IMG/VR virus record: IMGVR_UViG_3300008267_000862 | Span: 1 to 20,946 of that record | Strand: one strand, 5' to 3' | DNA from: a virus | Length of the DNA: 20,946 nucleotides | Shown here: positions 7,822-20,931 of the stretch, one piece after another | How the letters are laid out: the number at the start of each line of letters is the position of its first letter | Numbering within the stretch: position 1 is the first letter of the stretch | Notes under the pieces: model-generated | Database searches by the model: none | The model's input: the letters and a program-made list of their open reading frames with translations, nothing else | Told to the model about the DNA's origin: nothing | Translations under genes and position numbers: made by a program

Positions 7822-8172
7822 ATGAAAACAGATATATTGAAAAAGTTAATTAAAGAAGCAGTTCGTGAAGCAATTCAAGAAGAAATTAAAGATATACTTC
7901 TTGAGGCTGTACGTTCTCCAAAAGCTGTAGTTTCTGAAAATACTGATCCTTTAGCTTTTAATATAAAAACTACATCAACTAACATCAACCCAGATATTAA
8001 ACGTAATTTACGTAGCATGATTGGAGGTGAATTTGATACTATGATGACAGCCAATTCATCACATGCTCAACCAGCTTATACTCCTCCTCCTATTAGCACA
8101 GTAGGTGAAGGTTCAAGTTTGCCTAATGGTGAAGTAAGTTTAGATCAAATAATGGGATTAATGACTAAATAA
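7822..8172 (+). CDS. Small structural-cluster protein with N-terminal amphipathic helix
   Basis: The 116-residue protein begins with a long charged amphipathic helix, residues 2-31 (ILKKLIKEAVREAIQEEIKD), followed by a Pro/Ser/Thr/Asn-rich, probably flexible region (35-100) and a short C-terminal helix (LDQIMGLMTK). There is no membrane segment. It overlaps the gp25 gene by one base (TAATG), so the two are probably translated together, and it may be a baseplate assembly or connector protein. I do not recognise a family. Confidence 0.72.
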   Translation: MKTDILKKLIKEAVREAIQEEIKDILLEAVRSPKAVVSENTDPLAFNIKTTSTNINPDIKRNLRSMIGGEFDTMMTANSSHAQPAYTPPPISTVGEGSSLPNGEVSLDQIMGLMTK

Positions 8173-8639
8173 TGGCAATTAGAATAGCAAACCAAAACCC
8201 TTTAGACTTAAATCAGCGAGTTGCTGTTGGAATATCTATTCCCTTTAATGGTGGTGCTACTAATGCTGGTACCCCCTTATATACAGGATCTGGATTTAAT
8301 CCATCACTAACCACAGGAACTTCTGTATTTACATCAACATATACTACTACGGATCAAGTTAAATCAAACATGATTAATTTTTTGTTGACTAATAAAGGTG
8401 AGCGAGTTCTTAACCCAGGGTTTGGTTCTAATTTACAAAACCAATTGTTTGAAAATATAACTGATGAATACCTAAAAGGCTTAGAAATCAAAATTAACAA
8501 CGATTTATCAGCAAACTTTCCTGCAGTTAGAATAAATGGAGTATCTTTAACTCCAATATATGATGAAAATACTATACAATTATCTATAAATTATTCATAC
8601 TTAGGAAATACTCCTGAAAATCTTCAAATTACATTATAA
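8172..8639 (+). CDS. Baseplate wedge protein, gp25-like
   Basis: The 155-residue protein belongs to the GPW/gp25 family. The central motif NKGERVLNPGFGSNLQNQLFE (about residues 74-94) is the family's G-E-R-x-x-x-P-x-F-G-x-x-L...L-F signature, followed by the helical YLKGLEIKINNDL and terminal beta strands (TIQLSINYSYLG). T4 gp25 is 132 residues; this protein has about 30 extra Gly/Thr-rich residues between an N-terminal beta hairpin and the core. In contractile tails gp25 forms the inner baseplate and starts sheath assembly, binding the gp6 core. The downstream gene is gp6-like, with a one-base overlap, which is the expected partner and order. Confidence 0.93.
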   Translation: MAIRIANQNPLDLNQRVAVGISIPFNGGATNAGTPLYTGSGFNPSLTTGTSVFTSTYTTTDQVKSNMINFLLTNKGERVLNPGFGSNLQNQLFENITDEYLKGLEIKINNDLSANFPAVRINGVSLTPIYDENTIQLSINYSYLGNTPENLQITL

Positions 8640-10498
8640 TGGCAACTGAAAATAGAGATATAAAATATATAAATAAAGATTTTGGTGAATTAAGAAATGC
8701 TCTTATTGAATACACTAGAACATATTTCCCATCAACATACAACGACTTCTCCCCTTCATCCCCAGGAATGCTATTCATGGAAATGTCAGCGTATGTTGGT
8801 GATGTGATGTCATTTTATCTTGATAATCAAATTCAAGAAAACTTTGTTCAATTTGCTAGACAACAAAATAATTTATATACTTTAGCATACATGTTAGGGT
8901 ATAAACCTAAAGTAACCACTGCTGCCTTAGCCTCTATTGATATCTACCAACAAGTACCAGCCAAATTAGACCCTATAGAAAATGAATGGAACCCAGATTT
9001 TGATTATGCTGTACAGATAGCAGCTAATACTACTTTAGCTTCTAATTTAAATGGAGCTACAGGCTTTATCATGCATGACTCTGTGGATTTTACCTTTTCT
9101 AGTTCAGCTGATCCTACTCAAATTACAGTATACAGCACAGTTGGAGATGTCCCTGATTTTTTCTTACTTAAGAAAACTAGAAATGCTGTTTCGGCAAATG
9201 TAACTTCTATTGATTTTTCATTTGGAGCTCCAGAGCGTTTCCAAACAGTAGAAATTAATGACTCAAATATCATACAAGTATTAGATATAGTAGATAGTAA
9301 TACTAATGAGTGGTACGAAGTACCATATCTTGCCCAAGAAACTATATATGACACTATAGCTAATACTAATCCTAATGACTCAGGTGAAGTACCTTATTTA
9401 TTACAATTACGAAAAGTTCCACGTAGGTTTGTAACTCGTTTTACTACTCCTACAACTCTTCAAATTCAATTTGGAGCAGGTACTAACACTCAAAATAATG
9501 ATGAGGAAATTATCCCTAACCCAACAAACGTAGGCTTAAATTTATCCTCAGGTACAAACCAGTTTTTATATACAGCTTTTGATCCTGCTAATTTCTTATA
9601 TACAGGTACTTACGGTATTGCCCCATATAACACAACATTAACAGTAAGATATTTAACTGGTGGTGGAATATCAGCTAATGTACCCGCTAACTCTATTACA
9701 TCTATCATTAATACTGCTAATATTACATTTAATGCTGTTGGTTTAGATCCTACTTTACAAACTCGAATCCTTAATTCTGTAGCTGTTACTAATCCTTTAG
9801 CAGCTACTGGGGGTAAAGATGGAGATACTACTGATGAATTAAGATTTAATTCGTTAGCAGCATTTGGTACTCAATTAAGAACCGTAACTCAAGATGATTA
9901 TTTAGTTAGAGCTTTAAGTTTACCTTCACAATATGGTTCAATAGCTAAGATATATCTTGAACCCGAAAAATTAGAAAACATTCTTCCTGGTGAAACTCCA
10001 TCTATATTAGATTTATATATTTTAGCATATGATGGTAATAAAAAACTCAAACCTGCTTTAGATACTTTAAAAAATAATTTAAAAACATATTTATCTCAAT
10101 ATAGAGTAATTAACGACAGTATCCGAATTAGAGATGGATATGTTATTAATATTGGAGTAGAATTTGATATTATAGTTCTTCCTGAATATATTAATAGTGA
10201 AGTTTTAATTAATTGTATTAATGCTTTAAAAAGTTATTTTGAAATTGATAAATGGCAAATGAATGAACCAATTGTGTTAAGAGATTTATATATCATGTTA
10301 GATAAAATTGATGGTGTTCAAACTGTTAAAACTATTCATATAACTAATAAAGTAGGTGTTAATTTAGGATACTCCCCATTTGCTTATGATATTGCAGGGG
10401 CAACCCAAAATAATACTATTTATCCATCATTAGATCCTATGATTTTTGAAGTTAAATATCCTGATGGTGATATTAAAGGACGTGTTGTATCTTTATAA
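8639..10498 (+). CDS. Baseplate wedge protein, gp6 / baseplate J-like
   Basis: The 619-residue protein is close to T4 gp6 (660 residues). The N-terminal part (residues 8-90) has the wedge-core signature: KYINKDFGELRNALIEY, then FSPSSPGMLFMEMSAYVGDV with the conserved S-P-G-x-L-x-x-E, then ARQQNNLYTLAYMLGYKPK. The C-terminal half has the baseplate J pattern: GGKDGDTTDELRF (about 391-403), TVTQDDYLVRAL (about 415-426), and the region after it (YGSIAKIYLEPEK). Two gp6-type subunits per wedge form the ring around the tail hub that opens at contraction. It begins inside the gp25 stop (TAATG). Its first codons already include AGA and ATA, the codons served by the tRNAs at the window start. Confidence 0.93.
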   Translation: MATENRDIKYINKDFGELRNALIEYTRTYFPSTYNDFSPSSPGMLFMEMSAYVGDVMSFYLDNQIQENFVQFARQQNNLYTLAYMLGYKPKVTTAALASIDIYQQVPAKLDPIENEWNPDFDYAVQIAANTTLASNLNGATGFIMHDSVDFTFSSSADPTQITVYSTVGDVPDFFLLKKTRNAVSANVTSIDFSFGAPERFQTVEINDSNIIQVLDIVDSNTNEWYEVPYLAQETIYDTIANTNPNDSGEVPYLLQLRKVPRRFVTRFTTPTTLQIQFGAGTNTQNNDEEIIPNPTNVGLNLSSGTNQFLYTAFDPANFLYTGTYGIAPYNTTLTVRYLTGGGISANVPANSITSIINTANITFNAVGLDPTLQTRILNSVAVTNPLAATGGKDGDTTDELRFNSLAAFGTQLRTVTQDDYLVRALSLPSQYGSIAKIYLEPEKLENILPGETPSILDLYILAYDGNKKLKPALDTLKNNLKTYLSQYRVINDSIRIRDGYVINIGVEFDIIVLPEYINSEVLINCINALKSYFEIDKWQMNEPIVLRDLYIMLDKIDGVQTVKTIHITNKVGVNLGYSPFAYDIAGATQNNTIYPSLDPMIFEVKYPDGDIKGRVVSL

Positions 10499-11641: not shown

Positions 11642-11996
11642 TTATGAATTAAATAAAACAGTTTTTGACAAACAAAACTATAAAAACACTATTGATACTT
11701 CTTTTTCCCAAGTATCAGTACCGCCACCTCCTTTAGTAGATACTATAACTATAGGAGAATTTTTTGAGTTATATAATACTTTATTTTATGATATACCTAC
11801 TAATGGGAATACTAATTCACATGAATACTTAGCTAAAACTAGTGGTGATTATATTGGTTTTGAACAAACTAATGAAGAAATCCAACTTTTATTAGATGAA
11901 ATAACTACTTTAAGACAAGATTTACTTGCCGCTAATCAACAATTGCTTTCCCTTCAAACTCCACCTAGTACCAATTCATCACCTAATAATTCATAA
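11634..11996 (+). CDS. Small baseplate-region protein with C-terminal coiled coil
   Basis: The 120-residue protein has an N-terminal extended region with a PPPP turn, a central IGEFFELYNTLFYDIPTNG segment followed by SHEYLAKTSGDYIGF, then a coiled coil (about 82-108: IQLLLDEITTLRQDLLAAN) and a Ser/Asn/Pro tail. The start is inside the previous gene (8-base overlap) and the stop overlaps the next start by one base, so all three genes are translationally linked. The coiled coil suggests an oligomeric clamp or linker in the baseplate (inference). I do not recognise a named family. Confidence 0.75.
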   Translation: MANYELNKTVFDKQNYKNTIDTSFSQVSVPPPPLVDTITIGEFFELYNTLFYDIPTNGNTNSHEYLAKTSGDYIGFEQTNEEIQLLLDEITTLRQDLLAANQQLLSLQTPPSTNSSPNNS

Positions 11997-14695
11997 TGGC
12001 CGCACTAGTAACTTCTATAGACCCTGCTAACCTAGAAACCCAGTTTTATTCTACCCAGGATTTAACTTTACTTTCTATTGCGCCCGTTCCTTCTTTATTC
12101 AACCCTTCAGCACACAGGGTAGAATATACTATTCAATCTTTAGGTAGATCATATGCACTTACTAACTATAATTTTACTGACTACCAAGTAGTAACGGATA
12201 CTGTTTCTTACAGCTCCGATTTTTCTACAACCTATGAAATTTCCCTAGACCCAGAAAAAAACTTACTTAATGCAGGTTTTTCTCAAGGATCATACAATGT
12301 TATATATAATTTTTTTAGTAATGAACTTAATTCATCTTTTGAGAATCAAAATTATTTTATAAAAAGTATTTCTCCTGATAGAACAGAGGTAAGATTAGGT
12401 TCAAATGTTTTAGCAAATTTTGATCTTAAGATTTTAGTAAATCAATTTAAGAACCAATTAAATGAATTAACATATTTTCAAGATTTTTATTTAAATTTTG
12501 GGGATAATGAGTTAGTTATAGCTAATAACATATTACTTGATGAAACAAGTACACAATATGAAATATTAATTAATCTATATGAACCTTTACCTCCCCAATT
12601 TAATGTAAAAGATACTCTATGGATTGTTACCAAAGTTGCAGATTCATTAGCATTTAATGTTACATTTGAATTTTTACCTGTTACTCCTAAACTAACTAAT
12701 CCTACACTTAAAGGTCCAAATTTAAATCTTTCTATAAAAGACAGAGTTAATAACTCAACTAATTATATTAATTATGAACAATTATTAACAACTGGGCTTG
12801 TATCTTCATATGATCAAATTATCTCATATTTAGCAGAAAAAAGTCTAAATATAGGAATAGATTATTCCAATTTTTCAGATTTTGTTCATTTTTCCTCAGC
12901 TACATCTAGAGTTGAAAATTTCTTTTATAAAGTTCAACTTATTGAACAATATAGCTCAAGCTTAAATATTATTAATTCTACTATAAGTGCATCTTTAACT
13001 TCTAGTGCTTTATACTACAGTAATAAGATTACAGATATAATTAAAAATTTTGATGGTTTTGAATATTATTTATATTTTGAAACAGGTTCAATAACATACC
13101 CTAAAAGTACTACTACTCCTCCTTATACTTTAGTAACTAGTAGTAATGCTTCTGTTACTACTTGGTATGAAGGATTATTAAGTGATGCTACAGATTATGA
13201 CCAAAACAACCAGGATTATTTAATAAATACTATACCTGCATATTTAAAAGATGACCCTCAAAACGAACCCTACAAAGTGTTTGTTAACATGATTGGTCAA
13301 CACTATGATAATATTTGGGTATATTATAAGGATGTAACTAATAGATATAGTGGGGATAATCGCTTAGAATACGGTATATCTAAGGATTTAGTAGCAGATG
13401 CTATTAGATCTTTTGGTTTAAAAATCTACCAAAATAATTTTTCTATTAGTGATCTTTTTGATGCTTTTACCAGCATTAACTCAGGTAGTTTTACTCGCAC
13501 TGTTAACCCTAACCCAGTTGATGCTGAAAAAATTACTACATATGTAACAGCATCTCAAGAATCATTGTATACTCCTTTAGATGACGTTAATAAAGAAATG
13601 TATAAACGTATTTATCACAATTTACCTTATTTATTAAAATCTAAAGGAACAACCGCTGGTTTACAGAACATCATTAGTATGTTTGGTATTACTAGTTCTA
13701 TTCTACAAGTAAGTGAATTTGGTGGTAATTACACTTCCACCATCCCAAGAACAGGAGTTCGAGATATTATAAATGATAAAATTATAATTCTCTCCTCATC
13801 AGCAATATCTGCTTCTTTACCTCCCATAAGTGTCCAATATACCCAAGAAGCTTATACATTATCTGCATTTCGTGGCTTAGAACAAGTTGCAGCCTCTACT
13901 TCAAGTATATCTTCAAATGTTAGTTCTATAGAAATTGCATTTTCTCCCCAGAATGAAGTAGATAATCATATTAAATCAACTTTAGGTTATTTTGATATAG
14001 GAGAATATATTGGAGATCCTAGACAAACATTTTATTCTGATTATCCTGATTTAGAAACATATGCTGATTCATATTTTGGTTCACCTAACTTTGCTAATAA
14101 TGTACCATATTATAACCCAATAAATTATATTCGTTTAATAAAATATTTTGATAACTCATTATTTAAGATGATTAAAGATTTTGTTCCTGCAAGAACAAAT
14201 CTAAAATCAGGTATTGTTATTAAACAGCATTTATTAGAACGAAGTAAAGTTGTACAACCACAAGTTACTAGTAGTAATAATTATTATAGTGGTTCTATAG
14301 TTTCTGGATTTATTACGGGTAGTACTGGAGGTACTTTTAATGATTATAATTCCCTAACCCCTGAAGTAAATAATACTCAATCTTGGTATGAATCTATTAA
14401 AACACCTTTAGGATTAACTCAATCATTACATGATGACCAAGCCGAATTTTACAATGGTGAACTCCCGGGAACTATAATTGAGACATCAGATGGTGAATTA
14501 AATAATGAAAATGAATTTAAATATCCTTCAACTGAACCAATAAACTATAGTATATATCTTTACCCATCAAATGGAGATTTTGCTGGAATTTCTTATTCTC
14601 TCCCATTTTTTCTTTCCCTAACCCCAGGTACTGGAAGTATAGCATTGTGGTATGATACTGGAAGTATTATAACCACAGCACCTGTAAATAAATAA
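11996..14695 (+). CDS. Large baseplate/tail protein with P2 gpI-like segment
   Basis: With 899 residues this is the largest protein in the window. Residues 1-400 are beta-rich and unrecognised. Around 415-485 is YLKDDPQNEPYKVFVNMIGQ, then YYKDVTNRYSGDNRLEYGIS and LVADAIRSFGLKIY. At about 535-575, YKRIYHNLPYLLKSKGTTA, then LQNIISMFGI and VSEFGG resemble the tail protein I type of P2-like phages (N-L-P-x-L-x-K-x-K-G-T). At about 712-752, IKYFDNSLFKMIKDFVPART, then GIVIKQHLLERSKV. T4 gp7 (1032 residues) occupies the equivalent place after gp6, so this is a candidate functional counterpart linking wedge and fibres. It ends in a beta-rich Ser/Thr/Gly tail. Confidence 0.7.
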   Translation: MAALVTSIDPANLETQFYSTQDLTLLSIAPVPSLFNPSAHRVEYTIQSLGRSYALTNYNFTDYQVVTDTVSYSSDFSTTYEISLDPEKNLLNAGFSQGSYNVIYNFFSNELNSSFENQNYFIKSISPDRTEVRLGSNVLANFDLKILVNQFKNQLNELTYFQDFYLNFGDNELVIANNILLDETSTQYEILINLYEPLPPQFNVKDTLWIVTKVADSLAFNVTFEFLPVTPKLTNPTLKGPNLNLSIKDRVNNSTNYINYEQLLTTGLVSSYDQIISYLAEKSLNIGIDYSNFSDFVHFSSATSRVENFFYKVQLIEQYSSSLNIINSTISASLTSSALYYSNKITDIIKNFDGFEYYLYFETGSITYPKSTTTPPYTLVTSSNASVTTWYEGLLSDATDYDQNNQDYLINTIPAYLKDDPQNEPYKVFVNMIGQHYDNIWVYYKDVTNRYSGDNRLEYGISKDLVADAIRSFGLKIYQNNFSISDLFDAFTSINSGSFTRTVNPNPVDAEKITTYVTASQESLYTPLDDVNKEMYKRIYHNLPYLLKSKGTTAGLQNIISMFGITSSILQVSEFGGNYTSTIPRTGVRDIINDKIIILSSSAISASLPPISVQYTQEAYTLSAFRGLEQVAASTSSISSNVSSIEIAFSPQNEVDNHIKSTLGYFDIGEYIGDPRQTFYSDYPDLETYADSYFGSPNFANNVPYYNPINYIRLIKYFDNSLFKMIKDFVPARTNLKSGIVIKQHLLERSKVVQPQVTSSNNYYSGSIVSGFITGSTGGTFNDYNSLTPEVNNTQSWYESIKTPLGLTQSLHDDQAEFYNGELPGTIIETSDGELNNENEFKYPSTEPINYSIYLYPSNGDFAGISYSLPFFLSLTPGTGSIALWYDTGSIITTAPVNK

Positions 14696-14710
14696 AAACC
14701 AACCCAAAAT

Positions 14711-15250
14711 ATGGCCGGCAATAATACATATAAATCTACAGTAACCCCAGGTGTTAAATACGCTAAGATATCTAAAATCGACCAAAATGGTATAGATAAA
14801 TCAGCATATTTAGAACAACTTCAATCATTTATATTAACATATAGTGATATAGGTCCTGTTCAATACATTATTAATTCTGTTCAAGAACAGTCAACTTATT
14901 ATTTATTTGGTTTACAAGCCCAACCTATAACTTCTTCTGGCGATACAGTAAGTACTGATGTTATTATAAACTATACCTCTTCACTTATACCTAACCCTGA
15001 ATTTCCAGATTTTGAATATAATGACTATAATGCTTTATTCGGTAATGCTGAGACCCCCCAATTCTCATCCCAGTTTTTAGATGTTGATTATGGAGCAGGA
15101 ATATTCTTTCCCCAAAATTTTGATACTATAATCTCAGGAACTGCAACTCCTGCCTCAGTTCAAGATTCAAACTATTCTTCAAAAACTTGGTCTAATATTA
15201 GATATAATGGATCAAGAGTAAGTTCATATGATTTTAATAAACCGTTTTAA
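14711..15250 (+). CDS. Virion structural protein, unknown fold
   Basis: The 179-residue protein begins MAGNNTYKSTVTPGVKYAKI, followed by helix SAYLEQLQSFILTY and beta strands (VQYIINSVQEQSTYYLFGL). The C-terminus has TPASVQDSNYSSKTWSNIRY followed by NGSRVSSYDF, an ordered, aromatic-rich ending that looks conserved rather than random. It begins 15 bases after the stop of the 899-residue protein, without a Shine-Dalgarno. The context, amino acid composition (Asn/Ser/Thr/Tyr-rich) and absence of membrane segments suggest a virion component. Its partner and fold cannot be named. Confidence 0.72.
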   Translation: MAGNNTYKSTVTPGVKYAKISKIDQNGIDKSAYLEQLQSFILTYSDIGPVQYIINSVQEQSTYYLFGLQAQPITSSGDTVSTDVIINYTSSLIPNPEFPDFEYNDYNALFGNAETPQFSSQFLDVDYGAGIFFPQNFDTIISGTATPASVQDSNYSSKTWSNIRYNGSRVSSYDFNKPF

Positions 15251-15261
15251 AAATAAAGATT

Positions 15262-16902
15262 ATGCCAACAAAAACAGATATATTTAATCAACCTTATAAT
15301 AGTGCATTAAACACAGCTAATTTTGAAAAATTTTATGTTGGTACTACTCCTCAAGATCCTGTAGTAGAACAAAATCAAACATACATGGCTTATTTTGATG
15401 GTGTAGGAGGAACTGGTCCTGAACTTATAGACCAAACAGCATATTTTATTAAATATTTAATTGATACAAAAGGTAATGTTGTTAACCCTGAACCTGCTAA
15501 TAATATTGCTGATCCTCAAGGTGTTCCTTTATATAATTTGATTGATAATTTTGAACCTGGTAAAAGAGCTATAGTTAGATTAATAGGTAATGATCCTTTA
15601 CTAACAGAAAATCCAAATGATGATTCATTAACAGGTATCCATAATATAACTCATGTTGGTCGAATAGTACCTATTTTAGTAACTGAAACTGGAGAAAATA
15701 AACAAAATTATGTCACAACAATGAGTTTTGGACCACTGTCTACTCAAACTGTTGACGTGACTGTACCTAATGTGACTGCTTATTTTAGATATAGTGGTAA
15801 TGAATATGATATAGATGAATCTATTATTACTCCTAGTAATATTGATTTTGACCAAACCCTTAACCCACAATCTCCAGCTTGGACTTCTATTTCTGCTCAA
15901 ACAAAACGTATTTTAAGTAGTTCACTTCAAACTGGTACTCGTATTAGAATGAAAGTTGATTTATATCTTGAACCAACTTGGACTGATATATTTGCTGAAA
16001 ATAGAGTTGGAATTATAATCTTACAAAATGGTAATCCAATATCTTGGAATGCTAACACTTCTGGACTATCACCAATATCAAGAAATATGGTTGGTCCTGT
16101 AGGCTCAGAGTTTGTAAATGATTTTATTAGATATAATGAAGGCGGGGTATACACATCAGGTTGGTCACCATCTTTTGATTATAATGAAGATGATACTTTT
16201 GTAGTGCAGGCTTATGTTTTTGATGATAATCCTTTTCGTACTATTAAAGTTAAAGGGGTAGCAGCTGGTCGTAATCAAAGTGTCTTATATATAGGTCAAG
16301 AAACTCCCCCAGGAACAGGAACAGGTGCAACATCATCTTTTTTAGCTGATATTAATATAACTACTGCTTCTTATTGGGAAGGAGGAAACAATTTCCCAGC
16401 TCTTAATGGAGGTTACTCAGTTTTACTAATGTCTCCTGGATTAACCAATATGTGGCAATCTGGTTTAACCCAAAATCTCCCTACAGCTTCAGCCGCTATG
16501 AATTTTTCTCCTATTGCAATACCATTTAGTGATATTAGTCCTGGGGATTTTATAAGATTTGAATATAAAAAAGACCAAGTTTATACTATATATAACATCC
16601 AAGAAATTAATTCTTATAATGGTGATGATACAGGTTTAGCTATTACTATTGCTCCTGCTTTGACTAATTTAACTTCATCTATATCTGTTCCATATACACC
16701 TGGTAGTTATCCAATTGAATTAAATCATTTTGTAATTTATCGAGTAGTAAATGATGGAACATATGTTGTTTTAGATGTACCTAAACCTGTAGCTGGAAAT
16801 AGTTTTGCGGGTATAATTCAACCTGAATTTATATCTAAAGAATTAGTAGATAATTATGATAAAATAATTGTAGATTTAACACAAAAAGAAATAATTAATT
16901 AA
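15262..16902 (+). CDS. Large beta-rich tail or baseplate protein
   Basis: The 546-residue protein is almost entirely beta-rich and low in Cys, with many Gly/Asn/Thr/Pro turns. Recognisable stretches are TYMAYFDGVGGTGPELID near the N-terminus, RIRMKVDLYLEPTWTDIF (about 230-247), and NRVGIIILQNGNPISWN, which suggest jelly-roll or Ig-type sandwiches. A C-terminal HFVIYRVVNDGTYVVLDVPK precedes an acidic helical end. There is no enzyme motif, signal or membrane segment. It starts 11 bases after its neighbour. A tail-fibre, tail-spike or baseplate-periphery role is inferred from position and composition only. Confidence 0.7.
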   Translation: MPTKTDIFNQPYNSALNTANFEKFYVGTTPQDPVVEQNQTYMAYFDGVGGTGPELIDQTAYFIKYLIDTKGNVVNPEPANNIADPQGVPLYNLIDNFEPGKRAIVRLIGNDPLLTENPNDDSLTGIHNITHVGRIVPILVTETGENKQNYVTTMSFGPLSTQTVDVTVPNVTAYFRYSGNEYDIDESIITPSNIDFDQTLNPQSPAWTSISAQTKRILSSSLQTGTRIRMKVDLYLEPTWTDIFAENRVGIIILQNGNPISWNANTSGLSPISRNMVGPVGSEFVNDFIRYNEGGVYTSGWSPSFDYNEDDTFVVQAYVFDDNPFRTIKVKGVAAGRNQSVLYIGQETPPGTGTGATSSFLADINITTASYWEGGNNFPALNGGYSVLLMSPGLTNMWQSGLTQNLPTASAAMNFSPIAIPFSDISPGDFIRFEYKKDQVYTIYNIQEINSYNGDDTGLAITIAPALTNLTSSISVPYTPGSYPIELNHFVIYRVVNDGTYVVLDVPKPVAGNSFAGIIQPEFISKELVDNYDKIIVDLTQKEIIN

Positions 16903-16929: not shown

Positions 16930-17589
16930 ATGGGATATCTTAATAATTCAATAGTTACAGTAGATGCTATCTTAACAAGAAAAGGTAGAGAATTACTAGC
17001 TAGAAATGACGGTTCTTTTAGAATTACACAATTTGCTTTAGCAGATGATGAAATTGATTATACTTTATATAATCCTAATAATCCTCTTGGATCATCATTT
17101 TATGGCCAAGCAATTGATAATATGCCTTTATTAGAAGCATTTCCTGATGAAACTCAAGCAATGAAATACTTGCTTACTACTCTTCCAAGAGGTACTTCTA
17201 AACTTCCTATTTTAGATCTTGGTTACACTGTTATTACTTTAAATCAAGGTGCTTCACTTGCTGTTAGCCCTCAAACCTTAAATTACTTAGGTGGAACTCA
17301 AACTCGCGAATCTTCTGGTTATACTGCTACTATAGCTGATGTTAGATTAATGAGTGCATTTAATGGTGTAGGTATTAATACAACTCAAGCTAACGCGTTA
17401 AATTCAACAACTACTCTTGGAACTAACGTGTCTAAAACCGTAGTTGGTACTACCATTAATATGGCTGCTACTACAATTAATATTTTATTCCCTACAGGAG
17501 TAAACCAAATTTCAACCACATTAACTGTAGTAGGTAGAGATAGTGGAGCTAGAATTACTGTCCCTGTCCAAATTAATAAAAATGCTTAA
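16930..17589 (+). CDS. Conserved T4-like phage structural protein (KGRELLA type)
   Basis: The 219-residue protein has a highly distinctive N-terminus, residues 1-48: MGYLNNSIVTVDAILTRKGR, ELLARNDGSFRITQFALADD, EIDYTLYN. I recognise this kind of segment from structural proteins of large marine myoviruses. The following region (70-100) contains MPLLEAFPDETQAMKYLLTT, and the C-terminal third is a Thr/Ser/Asn-rich beta domain ending VVGRDSGARITVPVQI, which looks like an Ig-type domain. It starts a new gene group after a 27-base gap with an AT-rich motif. The position before the three paralogous tail proteins suggests it belongs to the same structure. Its exact place in the virion is not known to me. 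Confidence 0.75.
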   Translation: MGYLNNSIVTVDAILTRKGRELLARNDGSFRITQFALADDEIDYTLYNPNNPLGSSFYGQAIDNMPLLEAFPDETQAMKYLLTTLPRGTSKLPILDLGYTVITLNQGASLAVSPQTLNYLGGTQTRESSGYTATIADVRLMSAFNGVGINTTQANALNSTTTLGTNVSKTVVGTTINMAATTINILFPTGVNQISTTLTVVGRDSGARITVPVQINKNA

Positions 17590-17607
17590 TTAAAAAATTA
17601 ATAATAA

Positions 17608-18660
17608 ATGTCATTTAAAAGATTAGATCCCCAAGATTTTGTTGTAAGCGCTGATTCAATTACTGCACCGGCTTGGACAGATAATGCTCCGGTATTAAGT
17701 AATATGTATACTTCTTCTGTTCAAGAAGCAGGTAGTAGTGGCAATTATTACTTAAATGTTTACCAACTATCACCCACTAACCCCTCAGCTGAAATTCAAT
17801 TTAATATTGCATATGGTAATAAACAAGGATCAGGTTCGTTGTTGTATGATTCTAGTATAAGTAATTTATCTCCAACAAGAACCGTTTATGGTCAATTCCG
17901 TAATTTAATTTATGGGGATGAAAATACTGATTTTGTATTTGGTGGTGTAACCCAAACCGATTTTTATACTTTAACAATTGATAGAGCTCGCTACAAACAA
18001 TCCTTATTCCCAGGTAGTTTTAATTTAGTATTATCTAGTAGTACTAATGCTGTTTATTTAACAGATAATAGCAGAGATACTACAACTATTTCTTACCTTG
18101 ACTGTGGTAGAGTATTCCAAATAGTATCAGGCAGCAATGGCTCAGCTATTTCTTTAGCTAACAGTGCTCCTAATGCTGTGGCAGCAGGTATGACAGTTTC
18201 TGGATCTTATGGTCTATTCCTCCCAGATATTGGAACAATAGTTTTAAATGCCGCTGCTTTAGATTTAAGTAAAGCTAATGGTGGCATTATATTAAATACT
18301 TCTAAATCATCTAACTCTAACCCTAGCCCAACCAACCCAGCTAGACTATATGCTAAAATGGTTTCTGGATCTACATTTAGTAGCTCATTTTCATTAAATA
18401 GCCAAGAAACAATAACATCTGATTTTGTATTTATAAGAGCCAGAAACGCTGAATTTAATTATTCAGAAAATCCAAGCTTTATTTCAGGCAGTTCGGGTAA
18501 TATCATATATGATCTTTTTATTCAAAATCCACAAACCTATATTACTTCTGTAGGAATGTATAATGATAATAATGAGTTATTAGCCGTAGCAAAGTTATCA
18601 AAACCACTTAAAAAAGATTTTACTAAAGAAGCATTAATACGTGTTAAATTAGACTTTTAA
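17608..18660 (+). CDS. Tandem paralogous tail protein 1
   Basis: This 350-residue protein is the first of three adjacent paralogues. The N-terminal SFKRLDPQDFVVSADSITAP matches the opening of the others. The middle has RTVYGQFRNLIYGDENTDFV, then FYTLTIDRARYKQSLFPGSF and GSYGLFLPDIGTIVL. The C-terminal block from about residue 272 (FVFIRARNAEFNYSENPSFI, SGSSG, YITSVGMYNDNNELLAVAKL, then KEALIRVKLDF) is the best conserved part of the family. The protein is beta-rich with many Ser/Thr/Asn and has no membrane segment. It is probably part of an oligomeric tail or fibre structure, with the variable middle exposed (inference). Confidence 0.75.
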   Translation: MSFKRLDPQDFVVSADSITAPAWTDNAPVLSNMYTSSVQEAGSSGNYYLNVYQLSPTNPSAEIQFNIAYGNKQGSGSLLYDSSISNLSPTRTVYGQFRNLIYGDENTDFVFGGVTQTDFYTLTIDRARYKQSLFPGSFNLVLSSSTNAVYLTDNSRDTTTISYLDCGRVFQIVSGSNGSAISLANSAPNAVAAGMTVSGSYGLFLPDIGTIVLNAAALDLSKANGGIILNTSKSSNSNPSPTNPARLYAKMVSGSTFSSSFSLNSQETITSDFVFIRARNAEFNYSENPSFISGSSGNIIYDLFIQNPQTYITSVGMYNDNNELLAVAKLSKPLKKDFTKEALIRVKLDF

Positions 18661-18663
18661 TGA

Positions 18664-19614
18664 ATGGGTGCCTTCAAATCTCTTACTTCACAAGATGTTA
18701 TTGTAACACCTTTAGTTACACATAAAAGTTTTACTTTTACTGGAAGTACTGCTATATCAGAAAGTGGAATGGTAAGGTATTTAGGAGTCAATGCTTCTTT
18801 TGATAGTGCTACTGATATCTTCTATTCCTCTACTCAATCAATTTCTGCTTCCCTTATTTTTAATTCAGTAAAACAACTGTATTATTCTAACCAACTTCTA
18901 AATCCTGAGGGTGAAACTATTCAAACTGACATGAATGGAAACATTATTGAAGGAGGGGCAACTTTAAATGTTCACAGTAGATTTGATAACTATTTACAAA
19001 CTACATTATCTAGTTCAAGGTATTTTCAAACATCATCTAATACTGGAGTAAGAGTTTTATCTATCCCTTCTCGATTATATGGTGATTATATAAATCCAAA
19101 TACTTTTTATCTTAAAGTAACTGACCCTGGCGATGAATTTATTTATGATGAATACGTAGATACAGGTGAAGGAGTAATTTATAAATCCGGCTCAGCAAAT
19201 ATCAGAGGAATAATTATATATCCACATGGTATAGTTGTATTCCCAAATGGTCTTACTGCTGGAGATGGAGGTATAGATTATTTCCTTAATAATGAAATAA
19301 CATGTAGTTTTCAAAGTTCTAAAATCATATATGAAACCCAATATAAATGCACTCTTAGAGAAAATGAATTCAATTACTCTTTAAACCCTTCTATGTTTTC
19401 AGGAAGTGGGTATATAAATCCTCTAAATAGTAGTTCTGTAGATACTAGTGGAAAAGTATTAGATTTTGTAACAGGATCTTCTTTTTCTCCATACATAACA
19501 TCTGTTGGGCTATATGATGATGATCAACAATTATTAGCAGTAGCTAAATTATCTCAACCTGTACCTACTAGCAGAACAACAGATATGACTATAGTAGTAA
19601 ATTTAGACAGATAA
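18664..19614 (+). CDS. Tandem paralogous tail protein 2 (divergent)
   Basis: This 316-residue protein is the most divergent of the three paralogues. The N-terminus GAFKSLTSQDVIVTP aligns with KRLDPQDFVVS in the first. The middle shares SRLYGDYINPNTFYLKV and GIIIYPHGIVVFPNG with the equivalent LFPGSF and LFLPDIGTIVL segments. The C-terminus has LRENEFNYSLNPSMFSGSG, then YITSVGLYDDDQQLLAVAKL, ending VNLDR. An ATG at 18660 is out of frame, so ATG 18664 is the start, 3 bases after the preceding stop. Divergence in the middle but not the C-terminus suggests the C-terminus is the shared assembly part. Confidence 0.75.
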   Translation: MGAFKSLTSQDVIVTPLVTHKSFTFTGSTAISESGMVRYLGVNASFDSATDIFYSSTQSISASLIFNSVKQLYYSNQLLNPEGETIQTDMNGNIIEGGATLNVHSRFDNYLQTTLSSSRYFQTSSNTGVRVLSIPSRLYGDYINPNTFYLKVTDPGDEFIYDEYVDTGEGVIYKSGSANIRGIIIYPHGIVVFPNGLTAGDGGIDYFLNNEITCSFQSSKIIYETQYKCTLRENEFNYSLNPSMFSGSGYINPLNSSSVDTSGKVLDFVTGSSFSPYITSVGLYDDDQQLLAVAKLSQPVPTSRTTDMTIVVNLDR

Positions 19615-19618
19615 AATT

Positions 19619-20473
19619 ATGGCTTTAAACAGAATAGATTCTTTAGATTTTATTACAGATATTGTTTCTACTTCAACATCATGTTGGACAGATACTAACA
19701 ATATACCTGTTGATTCTCCTACTTTTTCTTCTCAATCTGTAACATATACGGTTAGTGGTTCTATAAATACTATAACTAATTACTATATTGGATCTACAAC
19801 TAATACTCAATTTAGTGTAGCCCTAGCTGATAAAAATGGAGTAATTGCCCGTAAAGCATTATATGGAGCTCTTCGCAACATAGTACTAGGGGATAAAAAT
19901 GCTGAATTTACTTGGGGAGGCTCTTCTCGCTCTATTTTTAGCATTATATCAATTGCTCGCTCAAAATATAAAACTGCTCTTCTCCCGGGTAGCTTAAGAA
20001 TAGGCAATTACACTGATAATAGTAATGAAAGCCCCCCTCAACTACTTAACTGTGGAAGAGCATACACATTAACTGAAGGGTTTACTCTTCCTGGTGGGGG
20101 ATTCTCATACGGACAAGGAGAAGGGTCCTATGGACTTGTCTTCCCAGATATAGGTATTATTATTACTAACCTTATTACAGCAACAAATATTAATGCTGCC
20201 TTCCAACTCCAATATGAAGACTTTACTCCTATCAATTCAGTCTTTATTAGAGCCCGAAACTCAGAGTATAATTATTCAACCAACCCAAGCTTCATTTCAG
20301 GTAGCTCAGGTATCATAATACACCCGGAATGGTATAACAGTCCCCAAACATATATTACTACAATTGGTTTATATAATGATAATAATGAGTTACTAGCAAC
20401 AGCTAAACTTCCTCGACCGTATAATAAAAATTTTCATAACGAAGCATTATTTCAAGTAAATTTAAATTTCTAA
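19619..20473 (+). CDS. Tandem paralogous tail protein 3
   Basis: This 284-residue protein is the shortest paralogue and is clearly closer to the first than to the second: ALYGALRNIVLGDKNAEFTW against VYGQFRNLIYGDENTDFVF, KYKTALLPGSLRI against RYKQSLFPGSFNL, GSYGLVFPDIGIIITN against GSYGLFLPDIGTIVLN, and a C-terminal FIRARNSEYNYSTNPSFISG, then YITTIGLYNDNNELLATAKL. A 21-base stretch encoding YNDNNEL is identical in DNA (18559-18579 and 20372-20392), so the duplication is still visible at the nucleotide level. It is placed 4 bases after paralogue 2 and 2 bases before the nuclease-like gene. Confidence 0.75.
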   Translation: MALNRIDSLDFITDIVSTSTSCWTDTNNIPVDSPTFSSQSVTYTVSGSINTITNYYIGSTTNTQFSVALADKNGVIARKALYGALRNIVLGDKNAEFTWGGSSRSIFSIISIARSKYKTALLPGSLRIGNYTDNSNESPPQLLNCGRAYTLTEGFTLPGGGFSYGQGEGSYGLVFPDIGIIITNLITATNINAAFQLQYEDFTPINSVFIRARNSEYNYSTNPSFISGSSGIIIHPEWYNSPQTYITTIGLYNDNNELLATAKLPRPYNKNFHNEALFQVNLNF

Positions 20474-20475
20474 AC

Positions 20476-20931
20476 ATGAATAACTGGTTTTGGTATGAAA
20501 ATATGGGAATTAAAGAGTTTAAAATCATAGAAGACTTCCCAGAAAATAGTTTTGGTTTTATATATAAAATTACTAATATAGTAACAGGTAAATTTTATAT
20601 TGGTAAAAAAAGTCTTTATCATAATGTAAAGAAAAAACTTACTAAAAAAGAATTAGCTGAACAATTAGGCCCTGGTAGAAAAGCAACTACTAAAAGAGTA
20701 CAAAAAGAATCTGATTGGGCTACATATTGGGGTTCTAATAAGGAAATATTAGAAGAAATAAAATCTAAAAGTGATTTAGCGTTTACTAGAAAAATTATTA
20801 AGATAGTTAACACCAAAAAAGAATTAACCTACTGGGAACTACATTACCAATGCCAGTACAATGTCTTACTTGTAGACAGTTACAATGATAATATATTAGG
20901 AAAGTTTTTTAAAAGAGATTTTGTTTCTTAA
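20476..20931 (+). CDS. GIY-YIG-like phage endonuclease
   Basis: The 151-residue protein has the GIY-YIG layout: GFIYKITN (about 27-34) in place of the first motif, then FYIGKK (40-45). KESDWATYWGSNKEIL follows (77-92), then FTRKII, and TYWELHYQCQ with the candidate catalytic Glu at 121. Near the end is YNDNILGKFF with the conserved Asn at about 139. A Lys/Arg-rich insertion (52-76) probably contacts DNA. I recognise this arrangement from small nuclease-like proteins in T4-like marine phages. It may be a free-standing homing endonuclease, a host-DNA degrading enzyme or a Holliday-type nuclease; sequence does not decide. A later ATG at 20503 would remove nine residues and is an alternative start. 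The gene begins 2 bases after the tail cluster. Confidence 0.8.
   Translation: MNNWFWYENMGIKEFKIIEDFPENSFGFIYKITNIVTGKFYIGKKSLYHNVKKKLTKKELAEQLGPGRKATTKRVQKESDWATYWGSNKEILEEIKSKSDLAFTRKIIKIVNTKKELTYWELHYQCQYNVLLVDSYNDNILGKFFKRDFVS

Follow-up and report, generated by a model that had tools for sequence, protein, structure and literature searches.

In phage T4, the outer-wedge and short-fibre genes gp9-gp12 follow the wedge genes in the genome, and their products occupy the exposed periphery of the baseplate. Phage proteins that contact the host commonly carry lectin and Ig-like domains, and phage tail fibres exchange alleles in a modular manner, with conserved ends, swapped middles and transfer from phage to phage. 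The described relatives of the genes studied here are all annotated as hypothetical proteins: gp164/gp165 of Flavobacterium phage immuto (vB_FspM_immuto, Immutovirus), WWT39513-WWT39517 of Microcystis phage Mel-JY01, and Rm378p128 of Rhodothermus RM378.

The 20,946 bp of DNA that we analysed, hereafter the window, make up a complete IMG/VR record. It carries three tandem genes, g1, g2 and g3, all on the + strand and separated by 3 and 4 bp, in a genome position comparable to that of T4 gp9-gp12. The proteins fall into two types, A and B, defined below. Immuto gp164/gp165 are orthologues of one A and one B gene (49% and 32% identity) and stand in the same order, after the baseplate genes and a homologue of the adjoining gene g0; however, immuto lacks the third copy and, unlike the window, has tail fibre and spike genes 3' of the pair. 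The Mel-JY01 genes form a tandem array with the same C-terminal block and a GIY-YIG gene after it, as in the window, but there are five copies (AAAAB), some of 591-954 aa, and the B copy carries a LamG insert. Rm378p128 has an A-type C-terminal block (43% identity over the block) in a single detectable copy, unlike the window array; its next gene was considered as a hidden B copy and rejected, as it showed no B-type similarity. No sequence relation was found to T4 gp9-gp12, which moreover are not paralogues sharing one C-terminal domain. The features of the window are as follows.

8172-8639, + strand: gp25-like baseplate wedge gene (Pfam GPW_gp25, E 2e-6)
8639-10498, + strand: gp6/baseplate-J-like wedge gene (PHROG baseplate wedge; TIGR02243 below cut-off)
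16930..17589, + strand: g0, conserved 219-aa gene adjoining the array (75% to immuto, 40% to Mel-JY01)
17601..18400, + strand: exchanged stretch of g1 (sliding nucleotide identity, AU tests)
17608..18660, + strand: g1, A-type paralogue, 350 aa (AlphaFold2 model, mean pLDDT 86)
18427..18657, + strand: type A conserved C-terminal block of g1 (alignment)
18664..19614, + strand: g2, B-type paralogue, 316 aa (AlphaFold2 model, mean pLDDT 75)
19342..19611, + strand: type B conserved C-terminal block of g2, with a variable insert inside (alignment)
19619..20473, + strand: g3, additional A-type paralogue, 284 aa (by tree, a lineage-specific duplicate from the g1 clade)
20240..20470, + strand: type A conserved C-terminal block of g3 (alignment)
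20476..20931, + strand: SegE-type GIY-YIG endonuclease gene directly 3' of the array (Pfam PF19835, E 1e-24)

Upstream, the gp25-like and gp6/baseplate-J-like wedge genes are adjacent and match PHROG baseplate wedge subunits (E 1e-20 and 4e-14), forming a contractile-tail baseplate module and bearing out the tail context proposed from sequence. They are followed by a large protein of 899 aa, two smaller genes, g0 and then the array. The 899-aa protein is kept in immuto, Mel-JY01 and a 484-kb phage, and the order of wedge genes, large conserved structural gene and array is common to immuto and Mel-JY01. Three genes of the window (11996-16902; 899, 179 and 546 aa) appear to be united in one ORF of 1600-1669 aa in relatives (L086 492-5294; L060 297-5306), pointing to gene fission or fusion in a large tail protein. 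The 546-aa protein (15262-16902) itself shows an array-like pattern: its two ends are conserved, and between them lies a highly variable part (about 15700-16400, ~45% nucleotide identity to relatives). Relatives of g1 occur in Flavobacteriaceae MAGs, which together with the Flavobacterium phage relatives suggests that the host belongs to the Bacteroidota.

By BLASTP, g1 and g3 aligned over their full length (34% identity, E 6e-59), g1 and g2 over the last 84 aa (43%, E 1e-13), and g2 and g3 over 286 columns (24%, E 2e-13). Profile-profile comparison matched g1 to g2 over 173 columns (E 9e-22), and when the C-terminal block was removed a core stretch of 34 columns still matched (E ~2e-4), thus the kinship of g1 and g2 reaches beyond the block. 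ORF coordinates and both kinds of comparison agree with the sequence-only reading, which had proposed three tandem paralogous genes of 350, 316 and 284 aa; the likeness outside the block persists, if weakly, in the g1-g2 core. The C-terminal motif was also present in all three ORFs as described. The shared N-terminal opening held less well, being weak between g2 and g1/g3 (F-K-x-L...D-x-I/V); each orthologue set does conserve its first 22 aa well. We conclude that g1, g2 and g3 are old duplicates of one protein.

The C-terminal block is about 75-90 aa long, reads R-N/E-x-E-F-N-Y/F-S-x-N-P-S ... Y-I/V-T-T/S-V/I-G-L-Y-N/D ... L-L-A-V-A-K-L, and ends 0-3 residues from the end of the protein in 311/311 proteins. 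It exists in two discrete types: two profile HMMs of the block split all proteins into A and B by at least 10 bits, and the split spans all lineages. The window array is ABA, that is, one B and more than one A in tandem. Counting only arrays without copies cut by a contig end, the window-lineage set comprised AB 126 times, ABA nine times, AABA three times and AAAAB once (Mel-JY01 itself), and the Mel-JY01 set AAAAB 13 times and AB ten times; the two sets share four reference records. Not one array typed in either set had a second B copy, and one to four A copies stood beside exactly one B. Loci with only A or only B were few, mostly short or at contig ends.

Related phages almost never had a single copy: two (A+B) are the norm and a third is the exception. 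Of 151 non-redundant groups, 130 had two copies, nine had three, five had four and one had five; immuto and five contigs of 120-170 kb had two copies and no more over the whole record, thus g3 is the exception. A stricter subset with generous flanks agreed for the scorable loci, 13/85 being impossible to type. One 177-kb contig had six copies, one of them distant from the array: this sixth C-terminal block (record G006 of locus L245, 26743-26997, minus strand) lies in an ORF of ~920 aa, ~73 kb off, and shows that a gene far from the array can carry the block. In the tree, copies clustered by position and g3 formed one clade within the g1 side (100*), with the third copy of locus L101 at its base, g3 being a g1-type duplicate specific to its lineage. 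In three loci a further A-type gene precedes g0 (L107 3536-4537, L144 3543-4562, L156 324-1319) and two more (L126, L169) have cut copies at the same place; in the tree, the copy in the first three is a g1-type duplicate that arose independently of g3.

The copy rule raises the question of a hetero-oligomeric ring or collar, built from A and B subunits in fixed stoichiometry, with g3 as an extra subunit in some lineages. The strict limit of one B is compatible with distinct A and B sites, the tandem spacing is tight (3-5 bp), and the conserved FNYSxNPS loop is of low confidence in the monomer model, as expected of an interface. However, A copies reach 1368 aa in the Mel-JY01 lineage, a length that suits fibres better than ring subunits, and we regard a ring as unlikely.

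Among g1 orthologues, mean pairwise identity was ~0.8 in the C-terminal block and 0.45 in residues 181-262, confirming the proposed contrast between a conserved C-terminus and a diversified, fast-changing middle. In relatives, the middle also receives whole domains. In the Mel-JY01 lineage, 23/25 B copies have a Pfam LamG domain in the middle, which in Mel-JY01 itself lies at residues 266-437, between the core and the C-terminal block. Long A copies (about 700-1370 aa) consist of an N-terminal extension, a g1-like core and the C-terminal block, and three of them matched Ig-like families. In the window lineage, eight long B copies (418-513 aa) carry inserts, which had no Pfam match in those scanned. 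Pfam found no LamG or other recognisable lectin domain in g1-g3 of the window. The g1 and g2 models matched the same viral proteins, including lectin- and LamG-domain proteins. Foldseek against the PDB gave no match at E under 0.7; weak fold matches linked the g1 model to T4 gp6 (Z 4.4) and the N- and C-terminal parts of the g2 model to an arm segment of Staphylococcus phage phi812 (PDB 9fko; Z 5.3, 76 residues, rmsd 2.5), which is unrelated to g2 by sequence and whose Z is too low for a claim of kinship. Many antibody-domain rows appeared beside it for g2 in VIA-align (Z 4.4-5.4) and were taken as a common beta arrangement.

The reading of these features that we prefer, and give an even chance of being correct, is that g1-g3 are virion proteins of the outer tail tip, at the baseplate periphery of a contractile-tailed phage, which combine a fixed anchor with an exchangeable host-facing domain. 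An adhesin role is proposed mainly because relatives carry lectin and Ig-like domains, and the proposed location is that of T4 gp9-gp12. The position of the array behind the wedge genes, the viral proteins matched by both models, the contrast between block and middle, the two C-terminal types with a single B, and the allele exchange described below also speak for this reading. Weak PDB fold matches, dN/dS below 1 everywhere tested and window proteins without a recognisable lectin domain count against it. Alternatively, g1 and g2 could be adaptors with a structural role at the baseplate wedge, as T4 gp9/gp10/gp11 are, tying other fibres to the baseplate, with a middle that co-evolves with those fibres and not with receptors. 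We consider this a real possibility, if the lesser one: in immuto the array lies between wedge genes and fibre or spike genes, and the immuto pair could be purely structural because separate tail-fibre and spike genes follow it; the weak structural resemblance to T4 gp6 and to the arm segment of phi812, the retention of g1 and g2 together in nearly all arrays and purifying selection on the array genes point the same way. An adaptor does not readily account for the LamG and Ig-like domains of relatives, the window-lineage loci inspected had no fibre-like gene after the array, and the middle of the array proteins is far more variable than g0 and the wedge-side genes.

The sequence-only reading had further named ongoing gene conversion between the copies as a possibility, and the pattern of identity instead revealed exchange between phages. 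The g0 of the window is 92-93% identical to that of L086 and L090; its g1 is only 56-58% identical to theirs but 83% to that of L010, and g2 and g3 are closest again to L086/L090. At the nucleotide level, 17601..18400 is ~76-86% identical to L010 and ~46-68% to L086/L090, with 77-94% to L086/L090 in the upstream g0 and in the C-terminal block of g1; sliding identity placed the switch points near the g0/g1 junction and within that block. A g1 tree forcing the window, L086 and L090 together was rejected (AU test, p 9e-14), as was the grouping of window and L010 for g2 (p 6e-8) and g0 (p 0.012), these p values being somewhat optimistic because the groups were picked after the identity table had been seen. 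For g1, the test did not reject a single clade of the window and every genome that bears g3 (p 0.14). L010 itself lacks g3 and has a GIY-YIG-matching sequence directly after its g2. Whole g1 alleles are thus transferred from phage to phage, and the breakpoints fall in conserved DNA, that of g0 and that of the C-terminal block. This resembles modular exchange in tail fibres, except that here the constant anchor would be C-terminal and the unit that moves is the whole allele of one tandem member.

Recent duplication with ongoing conversion between copies, and no special function, is by comparison highly improbable. The identical 21-nt run of g1 and g3 was indeed found, at 18559 and 20372, and encodes YNDNNEL; its probability given protein identity and codon usage is about 0.03, therefore it is no strong evidence of conversion. 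Tree clades are position-specific, and the A/B split is found in every lineage. Synonymous sites of g1 and g3 differ almost to saturation, by as much within a genome (0.66) as between genomes (0.67; permutation p 0.16). The tree and the synonymous comparison refute the conversion part; duplication itself stands.

Nei-Gojobori counts (NG86) gave no positive selection at the gene or segment level. The ratios were 0.09-0.10 for g0, 0.15-0.26 for g1, 0.23-0.41 for g2 and 0.22-0.28 for g3, many synonymous sites being close to saturation. Hence g1-g3 change more quickly in protein than g0, without positive selection on average, and of the proposed diversification under receptor or immune pressure, the diversified middle was found and positive selection at these levels was not.

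A GIY-YIG gene lies directly downstream of the array in 95/131 loci. In four loci, NUMOD/HNH-like or GIY-YIG-like ORFs, judged by eye, also lie between g1 and g2:

L021 1203-2117; L079 2220-3083; L210 4082-4996; L008 10441-11796: endonuclease-like ORFs between g1 and g2

Endonuclease-like genes in or beside the array suggest that this part of the genome is a target of homing endonucleases. In T-even phages, free-standing endonucleases promote local exchange and, by analogy, the homing-endonuclease-like genes may promote allele exchange at the array.

In the preferred reading, the N-terminal strand and the C-terminal beta domain would form the constant anchor, on either side of a beta-rich core; this core, with its variable loops, would face outwards and contact the host surface. 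A-type (g1, g3) and B-type (g2) anchors would occupy different positions, the B site occurring once and A copies being addable. Diversity would then have two sources: orthologous alleles swapped whole between phages via conserved flanking DNA, possibly promoted by the nearby homing endonucleases, and the insertion of extra domains, either LamG lectins or fibre-length extensions.

The family is undescribed yet widespread; variable host-contact parts and modular exchange are an already known principle. Relatives are encoded by more than 460 IMG/VR stretches for g1 and more than 590 for g2, besides immuto, Mel-JY01, RM378 and the 484-kb phage. Sequence searches with g1-g3 found nothing credible in Pfam, NCBIfam, PHROG or the PDB; a Pfam Protein M match (E 5e-4, below cut-off) was set aside. 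A family common in aquatic phages has thus remained unnamed in Pfam, NCBIfam and PHROGs. More tentatively, its members may serve phages of Bacteroidota, and probably of cyanobacteria, as a platform at the tail tip, in which one B and one to four A proteins share a docking domain, carry plug-in host-contact domains and diversify by endonuclease-driven exchange. If so, small cores, LamG lectins and fibre-length extensions would be interchangeable host-contact domains. The one-B/many-A rule and the docking block yield testable predictions on tail-tip stoichiometry and on the segment responsible for host specificity. They concern phages whose hosts, Bacteroidota and cyanobacteria, matter in the environment and whose receptor-binding proteins are poorly known.

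Immuto gp170 (L005 18483-18920) and PHROG_447 are labelled 'NAD synthetase' but match the SegE-type GIY-YIG gene of the window; judging from this similarity, the label is probably a propagated misannotation.
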